In this document: positions 7,798 to 22,573 of the stretch, one piece after another | How positions within the stretch are numbered: position 1 is the stretch's first letter | Layout: each line of letters starts with the position of its first letter | Translations under genes and position numbers: made by a program | Notes under the pieces: generated by a model | The model's database searches: none | The model's input: the letters and a program-made list of their open reading frames with translations, nothing else | What the model was told of the DNA's origin: nothing | Source of the DNA: a virus | Length of the DNA: 28,097 nt | Reading direction: 5' to 3' (one strand) | Virus record (IMG/VR): IMGVR_UViG_3300024518_000023 | Span: 1-28,097 of that record

Positions 7798-9977
7798 GCC
7801 CGCACCCCCGCAACAACCCGAGTGCCCTTAGTGGTCCACTCGTATTCGTAGCCGACCAGCACAAGGTCCTCTGTCGTCTCGATCTCGAAGCAGAACCAAG
7901 CTGCGCTCATGTGGGCCACACTGAATCTTAGTGGAACAAGCCTATCGTTACGGTACTGTCCGGTGCCCAGTATTGTAGTATCAAGGGTGGGCTGCGGCGT
8001 GGAGTCTGGAGACTGAGCCGTGTAGGTCTGCTCAGTCACTGGGATGAGAGAGAAGTCCTTGTAGTGACGCATCGTGACCTTGGGGAGGCCAGTGGTCATA
8101 ACCCAGACAGTGACGTAGGACACCTGCTTCTGCATTTGTGGGTCGTCTGCAGACCACCATGCTGACCTGTACACTGATGTGGGGGGGTCGGCATAAGAGA
8201 ACACAGGGGGCTGCTCTCCAGTGACAACCATTCCCATTGACCTCTTCGCGCTGATTACGAACAAGCCTCTCTCTGAATTGGGGGTGGTGTCCTCTGAGCC
8301 CGTATGGTGCCCAAACACCATCGTTCCGTCGTACAGGGTGGTTATGGACCCGACCGGGAATCCAACACGCGTTGTCCACGGCGATATGCTATCAGCATTG
8401 GGAAGACGGTCTACGTGCAACACAAGGCCCAAGGAGGGCCGGTCTTCACCGTCTACAGGGACATACACTTGGTATTCCCTATTCTGTGCTGAGTAGGCGG
8501 ATACGGCCTTCGCGTGGCAATCAGGAGTTATACGGCCAATCAGTCCATCCTGGCGCTGAGTCAGGTTTATGACTTCGTTAACCGCACCACCCGTCAATCC
8601 GCCAGTAATAGCGTATACCCCGTCCTCAGCGAGGAACACCACACCAAGCCCAGGCACTGACTGGATCGAATGTGGGGCCTTGCAGGTGACGTTAGATACC
8701 AGCGTGGTGGCTGTGAACCCGTTTGCGTAGTCACCCTGAACCACGTCTATTCCCTTCTCGCGGAAGACAAGAAGGGTGTTATAATTGCTGAAGAGTGCGG
8801 TGACACCACCATTCTCTGCGCTCAATTCAACGAATGCGTCGGCGGCGAACTGTTCTATCAGTCCCACCGTGGAGAAGTACAACGTGCGGGAGTCATCAAT
8901 CCCACCATCAAGGAACAGGCACCCGTTGAACAGGGCACTGAACCGTGCCCTGGGGGCAGGGAGAGGTCCAGTGGCTATCTCCGGTGCGGGCTGTCCAAGA
9001 TTGGCGGTCCGTACAGCGTCGAAGAACAACTCCTCAACGTTGTTCCTGACCACATCTATGAAGTACAGGGTCGTGTCCCCTGGGGACACATAGTCATCAG
9101 AGTAATTGGTGGTCCTATAAACCTTCCGGGCCACAGTCCCTCTGGGTCCGGTTGGGATCCCAACAGCACAGGCATGACGGAAGCCCTCTGCGTTGGCTTC
9201 TAGCGCCCACGCAGTTGTTCCAATCGTGGAGGTGGGTCCTTCGGATCCCGTGTCGGTGATGTAGCTCACAGCCCATCCGAAGATGGCCTGCTGGTCACCG
9301 TCTGACCCCGACTTGTTGTTCGCGAATCCAAGACCCCAACGCCCACCATCAGGGATGGAATTACCATCTGCGGGACACCACAGGGTCACAGCACCATTGC
9401 CGCTCGCCTTCGGGGGGTTCGGGAATGGAGGCGGGGGGGTGGGCTTGACGTTGGAGGGCTCCGGGGGGATTGGGAGCCCTTCAAATCCGAGGGGGCGAAT
9501 AGTCTGAGCAGCCGCCGCCGCGAGGTTTGAGAACGATGGGAGAGGCCATGGGCGCACAATGACAGGGCGGTCCACCCCATTGGTTATTATGGTTCCATAA
9601 GCTGTGTCCGTGAACCACGCCCCGGACTCAGTGGTTGTGGGGATATGGCGATTTGAAGCCAGGGTGACAACGGTGTCCGCCGACCCGTCTGCTTCAAACA
9701 GCAGTTTGAGGTTGCCTCCCTCCTCGTACAGGATCGACTGGCGTGCCCCACCTGCCAATCCCTGCCGCACGTGAAGCGAATAGATTGGCCCATCTGCGCC
9801 GAATGGGGTCCAAGTCGTGGTGTTTACCACGAACGGCTCGTAACCAACCCTGGTGCTCCAGCCTCCAGTGTCCCTGTCTATTGTCAGGTTCTCTGCGCGC
9901 CCTGCATTTTGCGGTACCTGGGGCAACTTCGTCTCGAAGCCACCTGCAAGCGGGGTCTGGTAGACGTTCTGTTTAAT
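7794..9977 (-). CDS. Tail nozzle / tubular protein B-like (gp10/gp12-type, ~727 aa)
   Basis: This large beta-rich protein has the features of the short-tail nozzle family (P22 gp10/T7 gp12 type). It contains repeated strands and the block 'RARFSALFNGCLFLDGG..DSRTLYFSTVG', followed by segments like LLVFREKGIDVVQGD and VVFLAEDGVYAITG. These recur in phage tail stabilisation/tubular B proteins that form the end of the tail tube. The gene lies directly after the adaptor gene, as expected. There is no ATG or GTG near the 5' end. A perfect AGGAGGTG ends a few bases before an ATT codon at 9977, which I take as the start. A TTG at 9926 is possible but lacks a ribosome site and would remove 17 residues. 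Confidence 0.82.
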   Translation of the reverse strand: MKQNVYQTPLAGGFETKLPQVPQNAGRAENLTIDRDTGGWSTRVGYEPFVVNTTTWTPFGADGPIYSLHVRQGLAGGARQSILYEEGGNLKLLFEADGSADTVVTLASNRHIPTTTESGAWFTDTAYGTIITNGVDRPVIVRPWPLPSFSNLAAAAAQTIRPLGFEGLPIPPEPSNVKPTPPPPFPNPPKASGNGAVTLWCPADGNSIPDGGRWGLGFANNKSGSDGDQQAIFGWAVSYITDTGSEGPTSTIGTTAWALEANAEGFRHACAVGIPTGPRGTVARKVYRTTNYSDDYVSPGDTTLYFIDVVRNNVEELFFDAVRTANLGQPAPEIATGPLPAPRARFSALFNGCLFLDGGIDDSRTLYFSTVGLIEQFAADAFVELSAENGGVTALFSNYNTLLVFREKGIDVVQGDYANGFTATTLVSNVTCKAPHSIQSVPGLGVVFLAEDGVYAITGGLTGGAVNEVINLTQRQDGLIGRITPDCHAKAVSAYSAQNREYQVYVPVDGEDRPSLGLVLHVDRLPNADSISPWTTRVGFPVGSITTLYDGTMVFGHHTGSEDTTPNSERGLFVISAKRSMGMVVTGEQPPVFSYADPPTSVYRSAWWSADDPQMQKQVSYVTVWVMTTGLPKVTMRHYKDFSLIPVTEQTYTAQSPDSTPQPTLDTTILGTGQYRNDRLVPLRFSVAHMSAAWFCFEIETTEDLVLVGYEYEWTTKGTRVVAGVRA

Positions 9978-13995: not shown

Positions 13996-14472
13996 TTATT
14001 TGATTGTTGCGATCGGGGTTCCGACGCGGGAATACCAACCCCTGTTGAACCCAGGGGCGGTGACGAATTGGACAGGGCGTCCAAACAGTCTCGTGCCAAG
14101 ATCAAGCACGGAGACATTCTGGATGCGTCCAATAATGAATGTTCTCCACCCAGGGAGAGACCCCGTGGCGGAAGCTGATTGAGGATCCACGTACAAGTGC
14201 AAGTAGGTGGTTCCGTTTTTGTCACGCCAAATGGCATGCGGGTTACCGACGCGCTGGCCGTACTTCCCGGTTGTTCCTTCCTCCTGCCACTTGTCATTGT
14301 AGAAGAAGGAGACAGGCTGTTTGTTCTCGATGGCGGCCTTCAATTCCTTCATAGGGTCCCCACCGAAGCGGGACACGTATTTGGATGCCCGCGTCTTGGG
14401 GATAACTGAAGGTCTGGCGACCCCAAACCCGAATGCCTTCTTCAACCTGCCAAGTATGCTGGTGTATGCCAT
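13996..14472 (-). CDS. Stand-alone WYL-like domain protein in the head gene cluster (158 aa)
   Basis: The central part (residues about 43-123) has the order seen in WYL domains: a helix (MKELKAAIENKQ), then PVSFFYND, then a 'VGNPHAIWRDKNG' turn, a TYLHLYVD strand and a final 'WRTFIIGRIQNVSVLD' segment. WYL domains bind nucleic acids or nucleotides and are mostly found in bacterial regulators and in some phage genes. There is no helix-turn-helix domain attached. The N-terminal 40 residues are basic. The gene lies between the acidic small protein and the scaffold. The ATG at 14472 has no good ribosome site and is immediately preceded by the palindrome element at 14473-14533. Assignment is by visual pattern only. 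Confidence 0.6.
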   Translation of the reverse strand: MAYTSILGRLKKAFGFGVARPSVIPKTRASKYVSRFGGDPMKELKAAIENKQPVSFFYNDKWQEEGTTGKYGQRVGNPHAIWRDKNGTTYLHLYVDPQSASATGSLPGWRTFIIGRIQNVSVLDLGTRLFGRPVQFVTAPGFNRGWYSRVGTPIATIK

Positions 14473-14533
14473 TGTGTCAACTCACACAGTACACCTCGGG
14501 TCTCTTCTTCTTATGTAAGAGACCCGAGGTGTA
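14473..14533. repeat. Palindromic element copy 1 (box plus 17-bp inverted repeat)
   Basis: On the plus strand it starts with the 14-base box TGTGTCAACTCACA (14473-14486). A perfect inverted repeat follows: left arm TACACCTCGGGTCTCTT (14490-14506), 10-base loop, right arm 14517-14533. It fills the intergenic gap between two head genes. The same box and the outer 15 bp of both arms recur inside the initiator gene at 20554-20610. There is no T-run on either side, so it does not look like an ordinary intrinsic terminator. Confidence 0.9.
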
Positions 14534-14538
14534 GTTGA

Positions 14539-15045
14539 TTATCGAGACATCCTGGAGGCGAAATCGAACTCTTCACCGCCACCGGGCATGGGTGCTTCAA
14601 CACTGATCTCAACCTCTTCCTCCTCGGGAGCAGGCATATCGAGGAACTCCTTGAAATCCTTGTCTCTGGCAAGCTCAGTCAGGAAGGCGGTGAGAGAGGT
14701 GAGGCCAGCCTCGTCCCGTATCTCAGAGAGAGGTATGGGAAGTGAGACACCATAGTCGGTGGCTGCGGCCTCAATCATAGCGAGGAAGCGCACGAGGTCC
14801 GGATCCAACTCGGTGGTGGGCTCGGTGTACTTCTCGGGCACCACATCCATGCCCATCACCTTGGCGACAGAAGCCGTTGCCTTGGCAAGGGCATCCAGAA
14901 CCTTGATGTTGATGGGCTTCTCAAACGGGGGCATGAGAGAGGCCAACTCGTCCCCGATCATGGCGTCAGCCTCGTTGGCTGCCATGAGCAGGTCCTCAGG
15001 TATGTCGTTGGTCATGGGGGTTGAGGGTCCGTATTCGATAGGCAT
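14539..15045 (-). CDS. Acidic small protein downstream of portal (168 aa)
   Basis: The protein has a helical N-terminal half (LLMAANEADAMIGDELASLM, LDALAKATASVAKVMGM) and a markedly acidic C-terminus with a run of Glu (residues about 142-152). Start ATG 15045 lies two bases after the portal stop, with GGAG eight bases upstream. Short-tailed phages often carry a small acidic gene at this position with an assembly or scaffold-related role. The composition supports a chaperone- or scaffold-like job, but no family was recognised. Confidence 0.6.
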   Translation of the reverse strand: MPIEYGPSTPMTNDIPEDLLMAANEADAMIGDELASLMPPFEKPINIKVLDALAKATASVAKVMGMDVVPEKYTEPTTELDPDLVRFLAMIEAAATDYGVSLPIPLSEIRDEAGLTSLTAFLTELARDKDFKEFLDMPAPEEEEVEISVEAPMPGGGEEFDFASRMSR

Positions 15046-16771: not shown

Positions 16772-18340
16772 TTAGAACGGGAGGGCGGAAGACCTGATTC
16801 TTCTTGCGCGGGAGGCGGATATCAGGTCATCGATACGGGTTCTCTGGGAGACTGCTGCTTGTGTTCTCCAAGACGGGGGTATGTCTCGAAGACACCTATA
16901 GGCCAGTGCACAGGCCATTGCCGCGTCATCATGACCTCCCTTAGGGGCCTCTGGTGCTACCTTACCTTGTGGGATGGTAAGCGACCGAAGCTCCAGCCAC
17001 GTGGGGCGATCCAGGATCTGGATGATCTGGAGGGACTCGCGCAGAGTGTCGAAGGCGTCAAGCTTGGATTGAAGCGTTGTCACCCAGGGCTTCCCGGTCT
17101 TGGGATTAGCCCACAAGTTGCGGTATCCGCAGGTCGTGGCTTCCAACAAGAACGCATGGCCGTGGTTGTTGGACTCGCCAAGCACGAGGGCTTGGTTGTA
17201 CCTGGATGCCACCTGAATCACCCTGTGCGCCCATGCGGCAGGAGTGATTCGGTTATTGCGTTCCGTGTAGACCACCTGCCGTGTCGACACGGACACTACG
17301 CACAAGGCGGAATAGTCTCCACCAACGCCACCACCGATGTCCACGCCCATGACGTATCTATCGTGTGGGTGTGGAGGCTCTATCTCCCGACCGTGCTGGT
17401 TGCCGTGGAGGTTGTGCTCCACGACGTGTATGTCTCCAAGGAGTTCATCCTCGAAGTAGCCTCCCTCTCGGTCAAGGAAGCAATCATCCAAGCAGGCTGG
17501 GTATTCGCGGCGGAATTTGTATGAAGACCCGATGCGCTTCTCTGTCCTACGTCTCCAGTGAAGTTGCCCGAGTGACAGGACGTACTCGTCTCGGATACCC
17601 TTCTCGTAATCCGTGAGAGAAGCCTCAAAGTCTGCCGGAATCACATCGGGTGAATCACAGTACGCCGGGTGTTCCCACCACCACATGGTTATAAGATGCC
17701 AACCGTTCTCAGGCGCACCCCTGATGAGTTGTGAGAAGAAGTCAGCCGGGTTGTCTGCCGTGGATTCGATTATCAACAGCCCGTCACCGACTGCGGCATC
17801 TGCCTGTGCTATGACCTCTTCAAGATCGGGTGCAAACGCAGCCTCACTTATGACTGCCGCCACTGGCGTGAATGAGCGCAGCCCGGTGGCAGAACGCGAG
17901 GTGAATGACCTTATCGAAGCCCCGGTATCTTCGTATACTATGTTGTTGCGGGCCTTGGTCTTGATTGGACGCTGCAATAGGGCTGGTGGGTCTTCAAGCC
18001 ATCTGCGGTTGTCGTCCAAGAGCATAGATGCTGAATCCGCACGCATGGACACCACGGCGTGCATGGCGGCATGTGGGGTCGTGTACGCCATGTGGTGCAG
18101 GACCATCTTGCACCCGGTTGTGCAGTACACCTGCCGTGCCTTTATGCATGCGATTCTCTTGTGTCCAGCTTCTACAGCCTTAAATATCTTCTCCTGCATA
18201 GGTGCCGTGTCCCACGGGATCGGGCGCTTACTGTCCTTGTCCTGAACTTTATGTATTCTCGCGAATAGGTCCAGGTCACCCACAAGCCTGGACACCTTAT
18301 GCGTCAGTTGCGGCGGCACTGATGGCGGGACGTACGTCAC
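16772..18340 (-). CDS. terL: Terminase large subunit (522 aa)
   Basis: This is the DNA-packaging ATPase and nuclease. ATPase domain: a Walker A-like segment KARQVYCTT (67-75), a Walker B-like strand AAVISE (161-166) and a coupling motif IIESTAD (190-196). Nuclease domain: GVDIGGGVGGDYS (332-344, acidic D334), ALVLGESNNHG (384-394, E389) and GGHDDAA (468-474, D471/D472), the RNase H-like triad of TerL nucleases. The Walker B Asp-Glu pair reads Ser-Glu, and Walker A lacks its usual Gly and ends CTTGCK, so the ATPase motifs are atypical. The gene overlaps the upstream zinc-ribbon gene by four bases (ATGA). Confidence 0.92.
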   Translation of the reverse strand: MTYVPPSVPPQLTHKVSRLVGDLDLFARIHKVQDKDSKRPIPWDTAPMQEKIFKAVEAGHKRIACIKARQVYCTTGCKMVLHHMAYTTPHAAMHAVVSMRADSASMLLDDNRRWLEDPPALLQRPIKTKARNNIVYEDTGASIRSFTSRSATGLRSFTPVAAVISEAAFAPDLEEVIAQADAAVGDGLLIIESTADNPADFFSQLIRGAPENGWHLITMWWWEHPAYCDSPDVIPADFEASLTDYEKGIRDEYVLSLGQLHWRRRTEKRIGSSYKFRREYPACLDDCFLDREGGYFEDELLGDIHVVEHNLHGNQHGREIEPPHPHDRYVMGVDIGGGVGGDYSALCVVSVSTRQVVYTERNNRITPAAWAHRVIQVASRYNQALVLGESNNHGHAFLLEATTCGYRNLWANPKTGKPWVTTLQSKLDAFDTLRESLQIIQILDRPTWLELRSLTIPQGKVAPEAPKGGHDDAAMACALAYRCLRDIPPSWRTQAAVSQRTRIDDLISASRARRIRSSALPF

Positions 18341-18570
18341 TGGGCAGGCACCATGTTGAGCGCTATATCGAAGTCCTCCAGCGGAACCTCTATAGTTTGG
18401 GTCACATGCCCACAGGCCCTACACCTTCTCCTCCTGTACACCATATCCGGGAAGTTTATGGAGAGGTCCCTTATCTTGGGTCTACAGGTGGCCGCCCTTG
18501 ACGTGGAATGTGAGGGTTGCCTCGTTTCCAGGACCAGCGCCGTATCTTCAAGGCATGCAGGGCATATCAT
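18337..18570 (-). CDS. Small zinc-ribbon protein next to terminase (77 aa)
   Basis: A CPAC pair (C3, C6) and a CRAC pair (C50, C53) frame a segment with a run of arginines (46-49) and are followed by 'GHVTQTIEV'. This is the layout of NrdR- and Ogr/Delta-like zinc ribbons, which bind nucleic acid. It overlaps both neighbours by four bases (ATGA at each end), so it is translated as part of the packaging set. The upstream gene starts with the same type of ribbon. It could help the terminase recognise DNA or regulate late genes; the sequence does not decide between these. Confidence 0.68.
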   Translation of the reverse strand: MICPACLEDTALVLETRQPSHSTSRAATCRPKIRDLSINFPDMVYRRRRCRACGHVTQTIEVPLEDFDIALNMVPAQ

Positions 18571-19055
18571 TCTCCATCTGTCCCGGTCATGGGGTCCGGG
18601 ACCAATGCCAACACGCGGGCAAGTTCCCTGATTGAGGGATCATCAGACTCTTGGGCTCCATGCTGTTCTGCCAGCGTCCTCCTGTATTCCCTTCTATCTG
18701 CGACCAACCAACGTGCGGTCTCCGCCTTGTACCGGGAGACAGCCTTGTCGGAGGTCAGCACTTCATTGATGGCATCCAGTGACGGACGGAGAAGGGTCTC
18801 CAATTCAGATTCGATGTCCAGCAGGTCTATATTGTTATCACGTGTCGGCAGTGGTGCACCCACACCATCGGTGAGTGTCCGGTTGCCTGCCCTCTGGTCG
18901 AGTTCACGCAGTTCAATGGCTGGAAGTTCCAGGGTCACAAGCCCCTTGCCACAAGCTTTGCACTTCCGGTTCCTATAATGGCGCTTATCTGTGCGCTTAT
19001 TGGCCGGGACCGTTAGAACGACCTTAGTAGGCCCATCACAATGGGGGCAAAGCAT
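18567..19055 (-). CDS. Zinc-ribbon protein, candidate small terminase or late regulator (162 aa)
   Basis: This is the first gene of the minus-strand operon. The N-terminal zinc ribbon has CPHC (C3, C6) and CKAC (C32, C35) followed by 'GKGLVTLEL', closely parallel to the next gene's ribbon and to NrdR/Ogr-type ribbons. Residues about 75-155 are helical and acidic/basic mixed (DLLDIESELETLLRPSLDAI; RWLVADRREYRRTLAEQ). The small terminase subunit is normally encoded just before TerL, and 162 residues is a suitable size. No other candidate is visible, so this or the 77-residue protein may fill that role. ATG 19055 has GGAG eight bases upstream. Confidence 0.65.
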   Translation of the reverse strand: MLCPHCDGPTKVVLTVPANKRTDKRHYRNRKCKACGKGLVTLELPAIELRELDQRAGNRTLTDGVGAPLPTRDNNIDLLDIESELETLLRPSLDAINEVLTSDKAVSRYKAETARWLVADRREYRRTLAEQHGAQESDDPSIRELARVLALVPDPMTGTDGE

Positions 19056-19162: not shown

Positions 19163-19180
19163 TGTGTCAGCTCACACAGT
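19163..19180. promoter_or_regulatory. Partial copy of the palindrome-associated box, operator-like
   Basis: TGTGTCAGCTCACACAGT differs by one base from the 18 bases starting at 14473 and matches the box inside the initiator gene (20554) at 12 of 14 positions. It has dyad symmetry (TGTGT...ACACA). It ends on the first base of the -35 element of the plus-strand promoter, so a protein bound here would contact or block that promoter. The large palindrome is absent at this site. Confidence 0.7.
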
Positions 19181-19209
19181 TGACGTTAGGTGTCCTATCG
19201 TGTTATAAA
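19180..19209 (+). promoter_or_regulatory. Plus-strand promoter for the initiator operon
   Basis: TTGACG (19180-19185) and TATAAA (19204-19209) are separated by 18 bases, a strong sigma70-type promoter. The predicted transcript starts near 19216, about 60 bases before the initiator start codon. It is the only good plus-strand promoter I see ahead of the five plus-strand genes. Confidence 0.78.
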
Positions 19210-19217
19210 TATGAGTG

Positions 19218-19245
19218 AACCCCGCGTGCTACCAACACCGGGGTT
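19218..19245 (+). promoter_or_regulatory. Leader hairpin presenting a repeated 14-base sequence
   Basis: AACCCCG (19218-19224) and CGGGGTT (19239-19245) form a 7-bp stem whose 14-base loop carries most of GTGCTACCAACACC (19226-19239). The same 14 bases recur at 22951-22964 beyond the end of the operon. It lies at the very 5' end of the predicted transcript, so it could affect stability or bind a factor. Confidence 0.55.
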
Positions 19246-19278
19246 TATGATCGAACCACCACCTAACTGGAGTCCGAT

Positions 19279-21285
19279 ATGGACAGTGTATCACGCCCTG
19301 TTGTTGACGTCAATGATTCAGAGATAAACAGATTCGGGCTCAGTAGATACAGCCTCATAGGACGCCTCGGTGGGCGCGCTATGGGCGAACTGAACCCCAC
19401 CTCCGTTGAAGACATAGTTGCTGATCCTGACACCTATTGTGTCAAGAACCCCGATGGTTGGAACAACCTAAAGGCCGGTTGTCCATTCAGCAACAACGGT
19501 TATGCCCCCAAGGGCAAGGGGGTGTTCTATAAGGTCAGTGGGGACCTGTTCCACTTCGGATGTTATGGCGATTCCCACCATCACCCTGGGGCTAAGGAGA
19601 AGGTCAATAAGAGCGGCAAGACTTATTGGAGCTATGTAGTCAGGGTCGAAGACTCAAACATAGTGTCCCACGAGAAGTTTTTGGCGATAGAGTTCGACGC
19701 TAAAACTCGTTCTGATTTGCAAGAAGTCAACGACTGGATGCGCTCTCAGAAGATGAGCCCATCGGTCATAGCCTATAACAGCAAGAGCGCTAAAAACTAC
19801 GTTGTATTCCGCAAGCCTGTCGGGTCCAGCGATAAGCGCCCCGGTGAACTTGTATTCAAATCCGATAGCATACGCATAGACGCTGGGTTCAAGTTCAGCA
19901 CCAGTGAGCATTGGAGGTACAAGGAGTTCGGATTCGATATAGACAATGAGTCGCTCCCCAACGCGATAGAAGGCATCACGCACATAAGTGTTGCCACGTG
20001 GAAGAGCCTGTTTATCAGCAAGGAACTCGTTGAGGTGCTGGAAGACATTGATTCCAATGCCGTGGCTCGGAAGCCTAAGGGTGACGTGTCCAATGACGAG
20101 GATGAACATTGGGATAAATACAAGAGGCGTATAGAAGGACACGCAGAGAAGGAAGTCAGGGCAAACTTCAAGATCGATAAGTTTGCCCACCTCCTTGGTG
20201 GGCTGGGGCTCGATATTGACCCCGACAGTGATAAGGATGTGGAGCAGCAGTTGGCTGATGCCGTACATGCTGCCCGTGGGAGAGCGTTCAATGTCAGGTG
20301 TAACAGGGCACCCCATCTGGTAACTACTTGGTCCCACGGTGGTGCTGGTCATTCCAATCACACCCACCTGACCTGCTGGATGGCTTCATGTGATGACTGT
20401 AGGCCCTTCGTTCTTGGTTCCATGGCTTCTGCCATAGAGGTTCAGGTATCCAAGTGGATGGACGCTGGATACTCAGTGGCTTCCTTCCGTGCCTCACATT
20501 CTGTGCTGTCTGATAAAACTGTGGCGAATTCCCTGAAGAATTGGTCGAGGAAGTGTGTCAACTCGCATTACACCTCGGGTCTCTTTAAAGAAGAGGAGAC
20601 CCGAGGTGTAATGAACAATAGGTGGATAGCCATAAGGGGCCAAGAAGGCATAATATATATATTCGCCCACCACTCGGATCACGGGGGCAGGCACACCCCC
20701 ACCTGCGTATCCAAAAATCCCGCGTTCTCCCCCACTGATTATTCAGACCTCGGGGCCATGTTCCATTCACCTGAGAGCATCCCGTCATCCGTAGACAAGG
20801 TCTTCACCGACGTGTACGCCATGGATAACGCACAACTCCGTGGAGATATACTGTACGGCGACCGGAAGTCCGTGAAGTACGTGAACTCACTCCGCAGGTC
20901 CATAACTGGGCGTGGATCCTCATCCAAAATGTCCAAAGAGGCCAAAGAGACCCAGCGTAAGAAGGACGGGGTTACAGACTTCAAGGCGACTGTGGGATAC
21001 AACATGAGTGGCTTCTATGAGGAGGTGTCTGACATTGTTCAGCAGCCCATAACGGAACATGACACCACAGCGGGAGGCGTGTTCGATAAGTGTCGTCCAG
21101 GCAGGCTGCACCTGGAAGGGGTGAACACCACCAAGGCTATGGACGAAGCCGTGACAAGTGGGCGTGTGAATCCTGCCTCCGTAGGACACCGCAAAGGAAC
21201 CAAGGCCCCCACCGTTCAGTCTGGGGACAACGACGGCATAAGCATCAAAACACTCGAAGAATTGCTCGATGAGCAGGGAGTCTAA
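19279..21285 (+). CDS. Putative replication initiator with cysteine clusters (668 aa)
   Basis: This is the only large protein of the plus-strand block. The N-terminal part has a primase-zinc-finger-like run (C54, C68 in AGCPF, then FHFGC95YG). Next come a strand FLAIEFD (134-140), NSKSAKNYVVFRKP (167-180) and SIRIDAG (197-203), an order loosely like archaeo-eukaryotic primase motifs, but the usual His is Tyr. Residues 366-374 form CxxxxCxxC followed by a helix and W393, as in the zinc region of rolling-circle Rep proteins. RWIAIRGQEG (448-457) and VKYVNSLRRS (532-541) sit where Rep HUH and tyrosine motifs would lie, but no clear HUH is present. Codons 431-444 consist of the palindrome element. 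GGAG lies six bases before ATG. Initiator function is inferred. Confidence 0.55.
   Translation: MDSVSRPVVDVNDSEINRFGLSRYSLIGRLGGRAMGELNPTSVEDIVADPDTYCVKNPDGWNNLKAGCPFSNNGYAPKGKGVFYKVSGDLFHFGCYGDSHHHPGAKEKVNKSGKTYWSYVVRVEDSNIVSHEKFLAIEFDAKTRSDLQEVNDWMRSQKMSPSVIAYNSKSAKNYVVFRKPVGSSDKRPGELVFKSDSIRIDAGFKFSTSEHWRYKEFGFDIDNESLPNAIEGITHISVATWKSLFISKELVEVLEDIDSNAVARKPKGDVSNDEDEHWDKYKRRIEGHAEKEVRANFKIDKFAHLLGGLGLDIDPDSDKDVEQQLADAVHAARGRAFNVRCNRAPHLVTTWSHGGAGHSNHTHLTCWMASCDDCRPFVLGSMASAIEVQVSKWMDAGYSVASFRASHSVLSDKTVANSLKNWSRKCVNSHYTSGLFKEEETRGVMNNRWIAIRGQEGIIYIFAHHSDHGGRHTPTCVSKNPAFSPTDYSDLGAMFHSPESIPSSVDKVFTDVYAMDNAQLRGDILYGDRKSVKYVNSLRRSITGRGSSSKMSKEAKETQRKKDGVTDFKATVGYNMSGFYEEVSDIVQQPITEHDTTAGGVFDKCRPGRLHLEGVNTTKAMDEAVTSGRVNPASVGHRKGTKAPTVQSGDNDGISIKTLEELLDEQGV
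20554..20610. repeat. Palindromic element copy 2, in frame inside the initiator gene
   Basis: The box TGTGTCAACTCGCA (20554-20567) precedes a perfect inverted repeat: TACACCTCGGGTCTC (20569-20583), a 12-base loop, then the complementary arm (20596-20610). The palindrome is 42 bases, exactly codons 431-444 of the initiator, encoding YTSGLFKEEETRGV. The arms are identical to those at 14490-14533 while the loops differ. Such conservation of arms across an intergenic and a coding site points to selection on the DNA or RNA, or to recent insertion. Confidence 0.9.
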
Positions 21286-21751: not shown

Positions 21752-21789
21752 TCAGAAATTCGTATTCGGTTGGGAGCCTATAGGCCCAC

Positions 21790-21841
21790 GTTTAGTGTAG
21801 GAGGCAGTGAATCAACGCTCCTCCTACATTAAACGAAGGAG
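21790..21841 (+). promoter_or_regulatory. Alternative RNA hairpins ahead of the 21848 gene
   Basis: GTTTAGTGTAGGAGG (21790-21804) pairs with CCTCCTACATTAAAC (21820-21834), 15 bp with one G-T pair and a 15-base loop. A competing pairing uses GCTCCT (21817-21822) with AGGAGC (21837-21842), the ribosome site of the next gene. The two pairings share 21820-21822 and cannot form fully together, so the first would free the ribosome site and the second would hide it. No T-run follows, so it is not a standard terminator. Confidence 0.5.
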
Positions 21842-21847
21842 CCTAAA

Positions 21848-22324
21848 ATGGACAAGTCAACCGCCCCCTCAACTGTTCTCGATGTGGTCTACGCCACGAT
21901 AGAGGGAAGCTTCAAGGGCCGTAAGGTCAAGAACACCAACGTGGTTGTCGGTCCGGTGTTCAGTGAACTTTATCCCGCTGGAACCACGGCTTGGCGTGTC
22001 AATGCCCACACTGACGACCGTGGTGGACGCGGAATACACGCGGGCCAGATAACAATATCCTGTGACCGCGCCTCGGGCAGAATATCGGTGTTCGGTGAGC
22101 CCAGGCGCAATTATAAGACTGGAGGCAGGTTCACTGTATCGCCTGCCCATAGGGATATCCTAGCAAGACTCGCCATCAAAATTGAGTCAGTCCTTGAGGC
22201 CACCGAGGGCTATCAGAACCCAGACCCCACGTACCACGTCCACCAAGCCAAAACCGCAACCACTGAGGACTCGGCGTCGCAGTACTCAGACCACGAATTC
22301 ATCTTCGAAATGTTCGCCAAGTAA
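21848..22324 (+). CDS. Unknown small protein (158 aa)
   Basis: ATG 21848 follows GAAGGAG at good spacing. The protein starts with a helix (STVLDVVYATIEGSF) and continues with beta-like segments (TNVVVGPVFSELYP, WRVNAHT, GQITISCDRASGRISVFGEP) and a helix (RDILARLAIKIESVLEATEG). A single Cys and several scattered His residues do not form a metal site that I can recognise. There is no membrane helix and no family recognised. The preceding 96-base gap holds the alternative hairpins described at 21790-21841, suggesting separate control from the initiator. Confidence 0.65.
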   Translation: MDKSTAPSTVLDVVYATIEGSFKGRKVKNTNVVVGPVFSELYPAGTTAWRVNAHTDDRGGRGIHAGQITISCDRASGRISVFGEPRRNYKTGGRFTVSPAHRDILARLAIKIESVLEATEGYQNPDPTYHVHQAKTATTEDSASQYSDHEFIFEMFAK

Positions 22325-22336
22325 GGGACCACACCA

Positions 22337-22573
22337 ATGAAGACAAACCTCTCTGGCCTTCTGCTTCTCGCCAAGGCCCTCTCCCTCCCCGATGACCAGC
22401 CCCTTCCCAGTGACCCCATGGACCTGCTTCGCGACAACAGGAGTTCACATGCTTCCCCCGACCGTTCAACTCGCTACAACAGGAGTTCACATGCTTCCCC
22501 CGACCGTCCAACTCGTGATAACAGCCGTGGTCATTCTCGTGGGGGTGCCACTCGTGATGACCACGATGCTTAG
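22337..22573 (+). CDS. Possible small protein overlapping the membrane-protein gene (78 aa)
   Basis: ATG 22337 has AAGGGA about eight bases upstream. The first 33 residues (MKTNLSGLLLLAKALSLPDD, then a Pro/Asp stretch) use C-ending codons and look like real coding sequence. The last 45 residues are Arg/Ser/Asp repeats produced by the 42-base tandem repeat read in this frame. The second half overlaps the membrane-protein frame. Either both frames are used, or this is a small protein whose tail is a by-product. I cannot decide. Confidence 0.4.
   Translation: MKTNLSGLLLLAKALSLPDDQPLPSDPMDLLRDNRSSHASPDRSTRYNRSSHASPDRPTRDNSRGHSRGGATRDDHDA
22434..22517 (+). repeat. 42-base tandem duplication containing a ribosome site and start codon
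   Basis: Units 22434-22475 and 22476-22517 differ at three bases. Each contains AACAGGAGTTCACATG, that is, a Shine-Dalgarno sequence five bases before an ATG. The unit is 14 codons long, so both overlapping frames stay open and each ATG leads into the same downstream reading frame. Confidence 0.92.

Follow-up and report, generated by a model that had tools for sequence, protein, structure and literature searches.

The complete record of a viral genome (the window; 28,097 bases, with a 127-base repeat at its ends) carries two elements, each composed of a 16-bp box and a long perfect palindrome, one in a spacer between late genes (14473-14533) and the other within g668 (20554-20613), which encodes a putative replication protein of 668 residues. 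Elements of this kind are conserved in distant viruses, the two arms of the palindrome covary, the left arm is kept in different reading frames, and the type of element is linked to the type of replication gene. The reading favored here takes the element as a cis-acting site recognized by the g668 module, with g668 most likely a replication initiator and the copy within the gene an origin or initiation site, and a probability of about 0.45 is assigned to it.

Box-plus-palindrome elements and their genomic setting

In the window, the terminase, portal, scaffold-like, major head and tail-like genes form a block on the minus strand, and g668 is the first gene of a short plus-strand block (Table 1). 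The late palindrome occupies the spacer between the minus-strand genes 14539-15045 and 13996-14472. The 42-nt core of the gene copy (20569-20610) coincides exactly with codons 431-444 of g668, and the arms of this copy extend to 20 bp if one T.G pair is allowed. The 15-mer TACACCTCGGGTCTC is present at both sites, and all boxes lie on one genome strand, to the left of their palindrome where one is present. A preliminary description of this DNA had given both palindromes and both boxes correctly in position and sequence; its account of two sites was confirmed as far as it went, a third box, at 19163, having been missed. Its wording that the element is inserted in frame stands for the in-frame core; insertion itself is not established, as no g668 homologue lacking the element was found in the searched collections.

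The occurrence of the element is beyond chance. The longest perfect arm in the window is 18 bp, compared with at most 14 bp in 100 Markov-shuffled genomes. The box has three exact matches in the window, all on the plus strand; when up to two mismatches were allowed, four matches were observed against 0.89 expected, and none of the shuffles reached four. Exact matches to the arm number four, compared with 0.44 expected at up to two mismatches. No direct-repeat iteron array was found in the window, each palindrome being accompanied by a single box.

Close to the gene copy lies the sequence CATAATATATATATT (20649-20663), a possible unwinding element; only 0.9% of equally long stretches match the A+T richness found there (fraction 0.009). 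Such a spot is absent at the late copy, and A+T richness is moderate beside the elements of L033 and L035, two distant viruses described below. The promoter-like sequence assigned to g668 was recognized by reading the sequence and was not among the matches of a computational scan. The WYL-domain match of the product of gene 13996-14472 is weak (E 0.004). This late gene, which follows the late copy, is kept in most terminase relatives, palindrome-free ones included. Two successive NrdR-like zinc ribbon genes (18337-19055) are located ahead of the terminase gene, and a 42-base unit is present in two tandem copies, 95% identical, at 22429-22512.

Table 1. Positions of the elements, associated sequences and genes in the window, and of paired palindromes in related viruses.
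Feature	Position	Strand	Remark
Box, copy 1, TGTGTCAACTCACACA	14473-14488	+	16-bp near-dyad TGTGT-N6-ACACA; abuts ATG of minus-strand gene 13996-14472
Palindrome, copy 1	14490-14533		Perfect 17-bp arms 14490-14506 / 14517-14533; 10-nt loop
Box, copy 2, TGTGTCAACTCGCATT	20554-20569	+	Codons C426 V N S H430 of g668
Palindrome, copy 2	20566-20613		Perfect 18-bp arms 20566-20583 / 20596-20613; 12-nt loop
Third box, TGTGTCAGCTCACACA	19163-19178	+	No palindrome; divergent intergenic region upstream of g668
Promoter-like TTGACG-N18-TATAAA of g668 (putative)	19180-19209	+	1 base after third box
CATAATATATATATT	20649-20663		Genome's most A+T-rich 15-mer; 36 bp right of palindrome copy 2
g668, putative replication protein	19279-21285	+	Contains copy 2; homologues only in L033 and L035
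Gene adjoining copy 1, 158 aa	13996-14472	-	Weak WYL-like match
Gene on other side of copy 1, 168 aa	14539-15045	-	Downstream of portal gene
g668-module gene, 158 aa	21848-22324	+	Pairwise match to gene after g668 in L033 (BLASTP E 1e-7)
Paired palindromes, L013	1575-1623 and 6299-6347		CyRepA1-type or related virus
Paired palindromes, L015	303-350 and 5046-5098		CyRepA1-type or related virus
Paired palindromes, L007	4785-4833 and 9485-9534		CyRepA1-type or related virus

Conservation of the element in other viruses

Searches of IMG/VR and GTDB genomes for the exact palindromes gave no match. A looser search of IMG/VR for the box together with GGGTCTC recovered three loci (L034, L033 and L035), the first of which belongs to the same record as L005, so that the search for box and arms in related phages, proposed in the preliminary description, yielded three viruses. 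L005 is a close relative of the window, with terminase and portal proteins 96-98% identical, and at the same late spacer it carries two boxes and a palindrome in which three adjacent arm positions are altered on both arms. Its contig does not include the region matching g668; the g668 of this virus, beyond the contig, is predicted to carry arms TACGGATCGGGTCTC.

L033 and L035 encode a g668 homologue with 36% identity over the alignment, and the box and a CGGGTCTC palindrome are found at the same alignment position as in the window, the box encoding the residues C-V-[NS]-S-H that the three proteins have in common. Two further tandem copies of box and palindrome lie in L033 and L035 between the scaffold-like and major capsid genes, upstream of the latter, and the loop of one late hairpin is the same as that of the gene hairpin when both are read in mRNA sense. 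The proposal that the site is tied to a putative replication gene and recurs at a second place thus extends to distant viruses. A box at the g668 promoter region is absent in L033 and L035, and no copy of the element was found outside these viruses.

The outer letters of the arms differ between viruses, are common to the copies within one virus and change jointly on both arms, while the inner CGGGTCTC core is retained. Of the pair cells in seven copies, 95.5% are paired, and both sides have changed at five pairs; when the partner was slid by one column, pairing fell to 43% or less. Few covariation events were counted, because copies within one virus are not independent. In g668, the left arm CTCGGGTCTCTT is read as TCG GGT CTC in the window and as ACT CGG GTC TCT in L033; because the frames differ between the two lineages, it is the DNA or RNA that is conserved and not the peptide. 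Furthermore, the g668 genes of L033 and L035 differ at 49 positions, none of which falls within the 59-nt element. Template-switch repair can keep perfect palindromes symmetrical without selection, and such correction could be an alternative source of the double arm changes. The feature is real, and selection acts on it as nucleic acid, in line with the earlier suggestion that selection acts on box and arms; conservation of the peptide with loss of the palindrome, the pattern named as evidence against that suggestion, is the opposite of what was seen, the palindrome being kept and the peptide changed.

Other potential structures are shared by the g668 regions of these viruses. Ahead of its g668 start codon, the window contains a potential hairpin, AACCCCG...CGGGGTT (19210-19250), and the L033 counterpart (L051 about 18225-18262) reads GAGTCCCG...CGGGACTC, with changes relative to the window that are apparently compensatory; the two hairpins are apparently a leader structure. 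A further palindrome, with AGGAGG/CCTCCT in its arms, lies at 21789-21835, just upstream of gene 21848-22324. A similar hairpin directly after g668 in L033 and L035 (L051 20363; L052 2363-2396) contains a Shine-Dalgarno-like AAGGAGGTG ahead of the homologue of that gene.

Element type and type of replication gene

The terminase large subunit of the window shares 76-79% identity with its counterparts in G004, L007 and L013 and 34% with that of L033. Despite this closer terminase relationship, the element at the late site of the window is of the L033 type, and g668 was found to be shared with L033 and L035 only. In G004 and L007 the replication gene is instead CyRepA1-like (E 4e-22 and 1e-27 in NCBIfam, short of the curated cut-off), and a palindrome with different arms is present in the same late spacer. 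L007, L013 and L015 have a second palindrome copy, which precedes the replication gene region at a distance of about 0.9 kb from the terminase start, and the paired palindromes of L013 and L015 are flanked by GAACGCCGTG..CATCGGC-like boxes; these three viruses apparently represent a parallel system. When CGATGAACACGGCGTTC, a box of CyRepA1-type relatives, was scanned in IMG/VR, matches were obtained, several of which may be due to chance. G007 contains a palindrome with 20-bp arms inside its own primase-like gene, and in G005 and G006, which carry a VapE-like gene (E 1e-66), the late spacer lacks a long palindrome. Two palindromes with arms CGGCGTTTCTAACCTAA were observed in the virus G010 (L063 4804-4850 and 13175-13225), one upstream of the major capsid gene and one between two later structural genes, on a contig that does not include the replication gene.

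Among the sequences compared, the type of element follows g668, or the replication gene, and not the neighboring genes. This is the strongest reason for considering g668 or its partner gene (21848-22324) as the trans-acting factor. A broader model is put forward tentatively, at well short of even odds: replication specificity may be modular in this group of small podovirus-like phages, each type of replication gene having its own hairpin-plus-box site, placed in or beside the replication gene and again inside the structural block, with the distant copy changing when the replication gene is exchanged and with g668 representing a new initiator family that recognizes a folded site in its own coding sequence.

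Profile searches of g668 revealed no recognizable domain and no known replication family, and when g668 was the query, neither single-protein patterns nor searches of named phages and bacterial genomes gave a relative. Comparison of HMMs with a CyRepA1-like alignment gave no relationship, and assignment to the rolling-circle HUH proteins was rejected, as the sole HxH-like motif of the window protein, HTH, becomes HTK in L033. AlphaFold models had a pLDDT of 30 for g668 and 37 for its middle domain, too poor for a fold search. Because there is no match to a known family and structure prediction failed, the label initiator rests on gene position and linkage.

Possible functions of the element

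If g668 is an initiator, it may bind the 16-bp dyad box beside the hairpin-forming palindrome, whose shape is kept while its outer arm letters drift. Either a hairpin formed in the DNA or the A+T-rich spot at 20649 might supply single-stranded DNA for initiation. The copy within g668, close to the genome's peak of A+T richness, would serve as the origin or as an initiation site and the copy between head genes as a second initiation site; the lone box at the g668 promoter could be an operator through which g668 regulates its own promoter. A replication origin with a secondary origin, as proposed in the preliminary description, is a plausible idea that is compatible with the data but unproven. 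Cumulative GC skew has no turning point at 14.5 or 20.6 kb, so that the shift looked for there is not seen; its extremes are at 7908 and 26209, and AT skew turns near 19 kb, where the coding strand switches. A second copy in the middle of a late operon is unusual for an origin and counts against this interpretation.

Several known replication systems resemble parts of this arrangement. Phage P4 has two separated initiator sites, ori and crr, and the lambda origin lies inside gene O; the window resembles the former in its two separated sites and, if g668 is an initiator, the latter in the site inside that gene. Those origins use iterons, whereas the present element is a long perfect palindrome. 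The stem-loop origin of pRN1-type crenarchaeal plasmids, proposed also for phage BIP-1, keeps its structure while its sequence drifts, and still functions after relocation elsewhere in the plasmid (PMC4234260). It is thus similar in being a stem-loop tied to a replication gene, with conservation of the stem in structure and not in sequence; it differs in lying downstream of the replication gene as a single copy of about 100 nt with a large loop and no flanking 16-bp box (PMC4234260). Furthermore, the pRN1 replication protein has prim-pol, SF3 helicase and winged-helix domains, none of which was detected in g668 by profile searches. The ssiA and ssiB sites of RSF1010 are hairpin single-strand initiation sites recognized by the primase of the replicon itself, and they resemble the present element in combining a hairpin with conserved flanking bases and in occurring twice per replicon (PMC4434180). 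RSF1010 has one ssi copy per strand, in contrast to the boxes of the window, all of which are on the same strand.

The main rival to the origin reading is a role in RNA, in which a small stem formed by the box and the large hairpin would act in early and late mRNAs, for antitermination or pausing of the HK022 put kind, as an RNase III site or as the target of a phage RNA-binding regulator. The mRNA of either site folds into the large hairpin, and the late mRNA also into the small box stem. The non-Watson-Crick arm pairs of the g668 copy, the late copies of L033 and L035 and one G010 copy are G.U in mRNA sense, with no A.C, in a tally that leaves out the late row of L007. These pairs, from this type of element and one relative, favor the mRNA sense of each copy and not one genome strand, which fits an RNA role better than an origin. 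The loop shared in mRNA sense by the gene hairpin and one late hairpin of L033 and L035 points in the same direction. However, independent wobble events are few, and box and hairpin follow each other in opposite orders in the two transcripts but in a constant order on the genome strand, which favors DNA. In addition, the box at 19163 would act at the DNA level from its position upstream of the promoter-like sequence. No Rfam match was obtained, a tRNA search gave no match, and a terminator scan found no T-tract terminator at 14.5 or 20.6 kb. The put RNA elements of HK022 consist of two stem-loops of about 70 nt and occur in two similar copies per phage genome (PMC9378689). The window is alike in having two similar copies of two stem-loops, while put sites follow early promoters and the window has one copy inside a gene and the opposite stem order in the two transcripts. 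On balance, an RNA role is less probable than the origin reading.

It is less probable still that the boxes are transcription operators, bound by a dimeric regulator of early and late genes, with the palindrome as an accessory hairpin. The 16-bp dyad shares its geometry with CRP-type sites, and the three near-dyad boxes include one immediately upstream of the promoter-like sequence at the divergent early/late boundary and one directly before a late gene start; the late site of L005 has two boxes. Such operators would not account for a mid-gene site that distant viruses retain, or for the long covarying palindrome, and the missing promoter box of L033 and L035 also argues against it. Palindromes read in frame within protein genes are known from Rickettsia palindromic elements, and a single in-frame jump of such an element, or of a MITE, into g668 would agree with its in-frame position, the near-identical copies within one genome, the tandem copies of L033 and L035 and the patchy distribution among relatives at the late spacer; this origin, raised in the preliminary description, is very improbable and was weakened by the conservation of one position, with different arms, in g668 proteins 36% identical, by the common strand of all copies, by linkage to one type of replication gene in place of the scattered distribution of the Rickettsia elements, and by the lack in the searched collections of an element-free homologue or a copy elsewhere.

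If the element is indeed the recognition site of the g668 module, a cis site and a trans factor open to direct testing would be available for replication in a group of uncultured phages whose replication protein falls outside all known families. Within a coding region, the initiator target would be preserved through its folded structure and would co-evolve with a second copy, kilobases away in the structural operon, that has to follow any exchange of the replication gene. This would explain why related viruses carry palindromes at matching genome positions but with differing letters.
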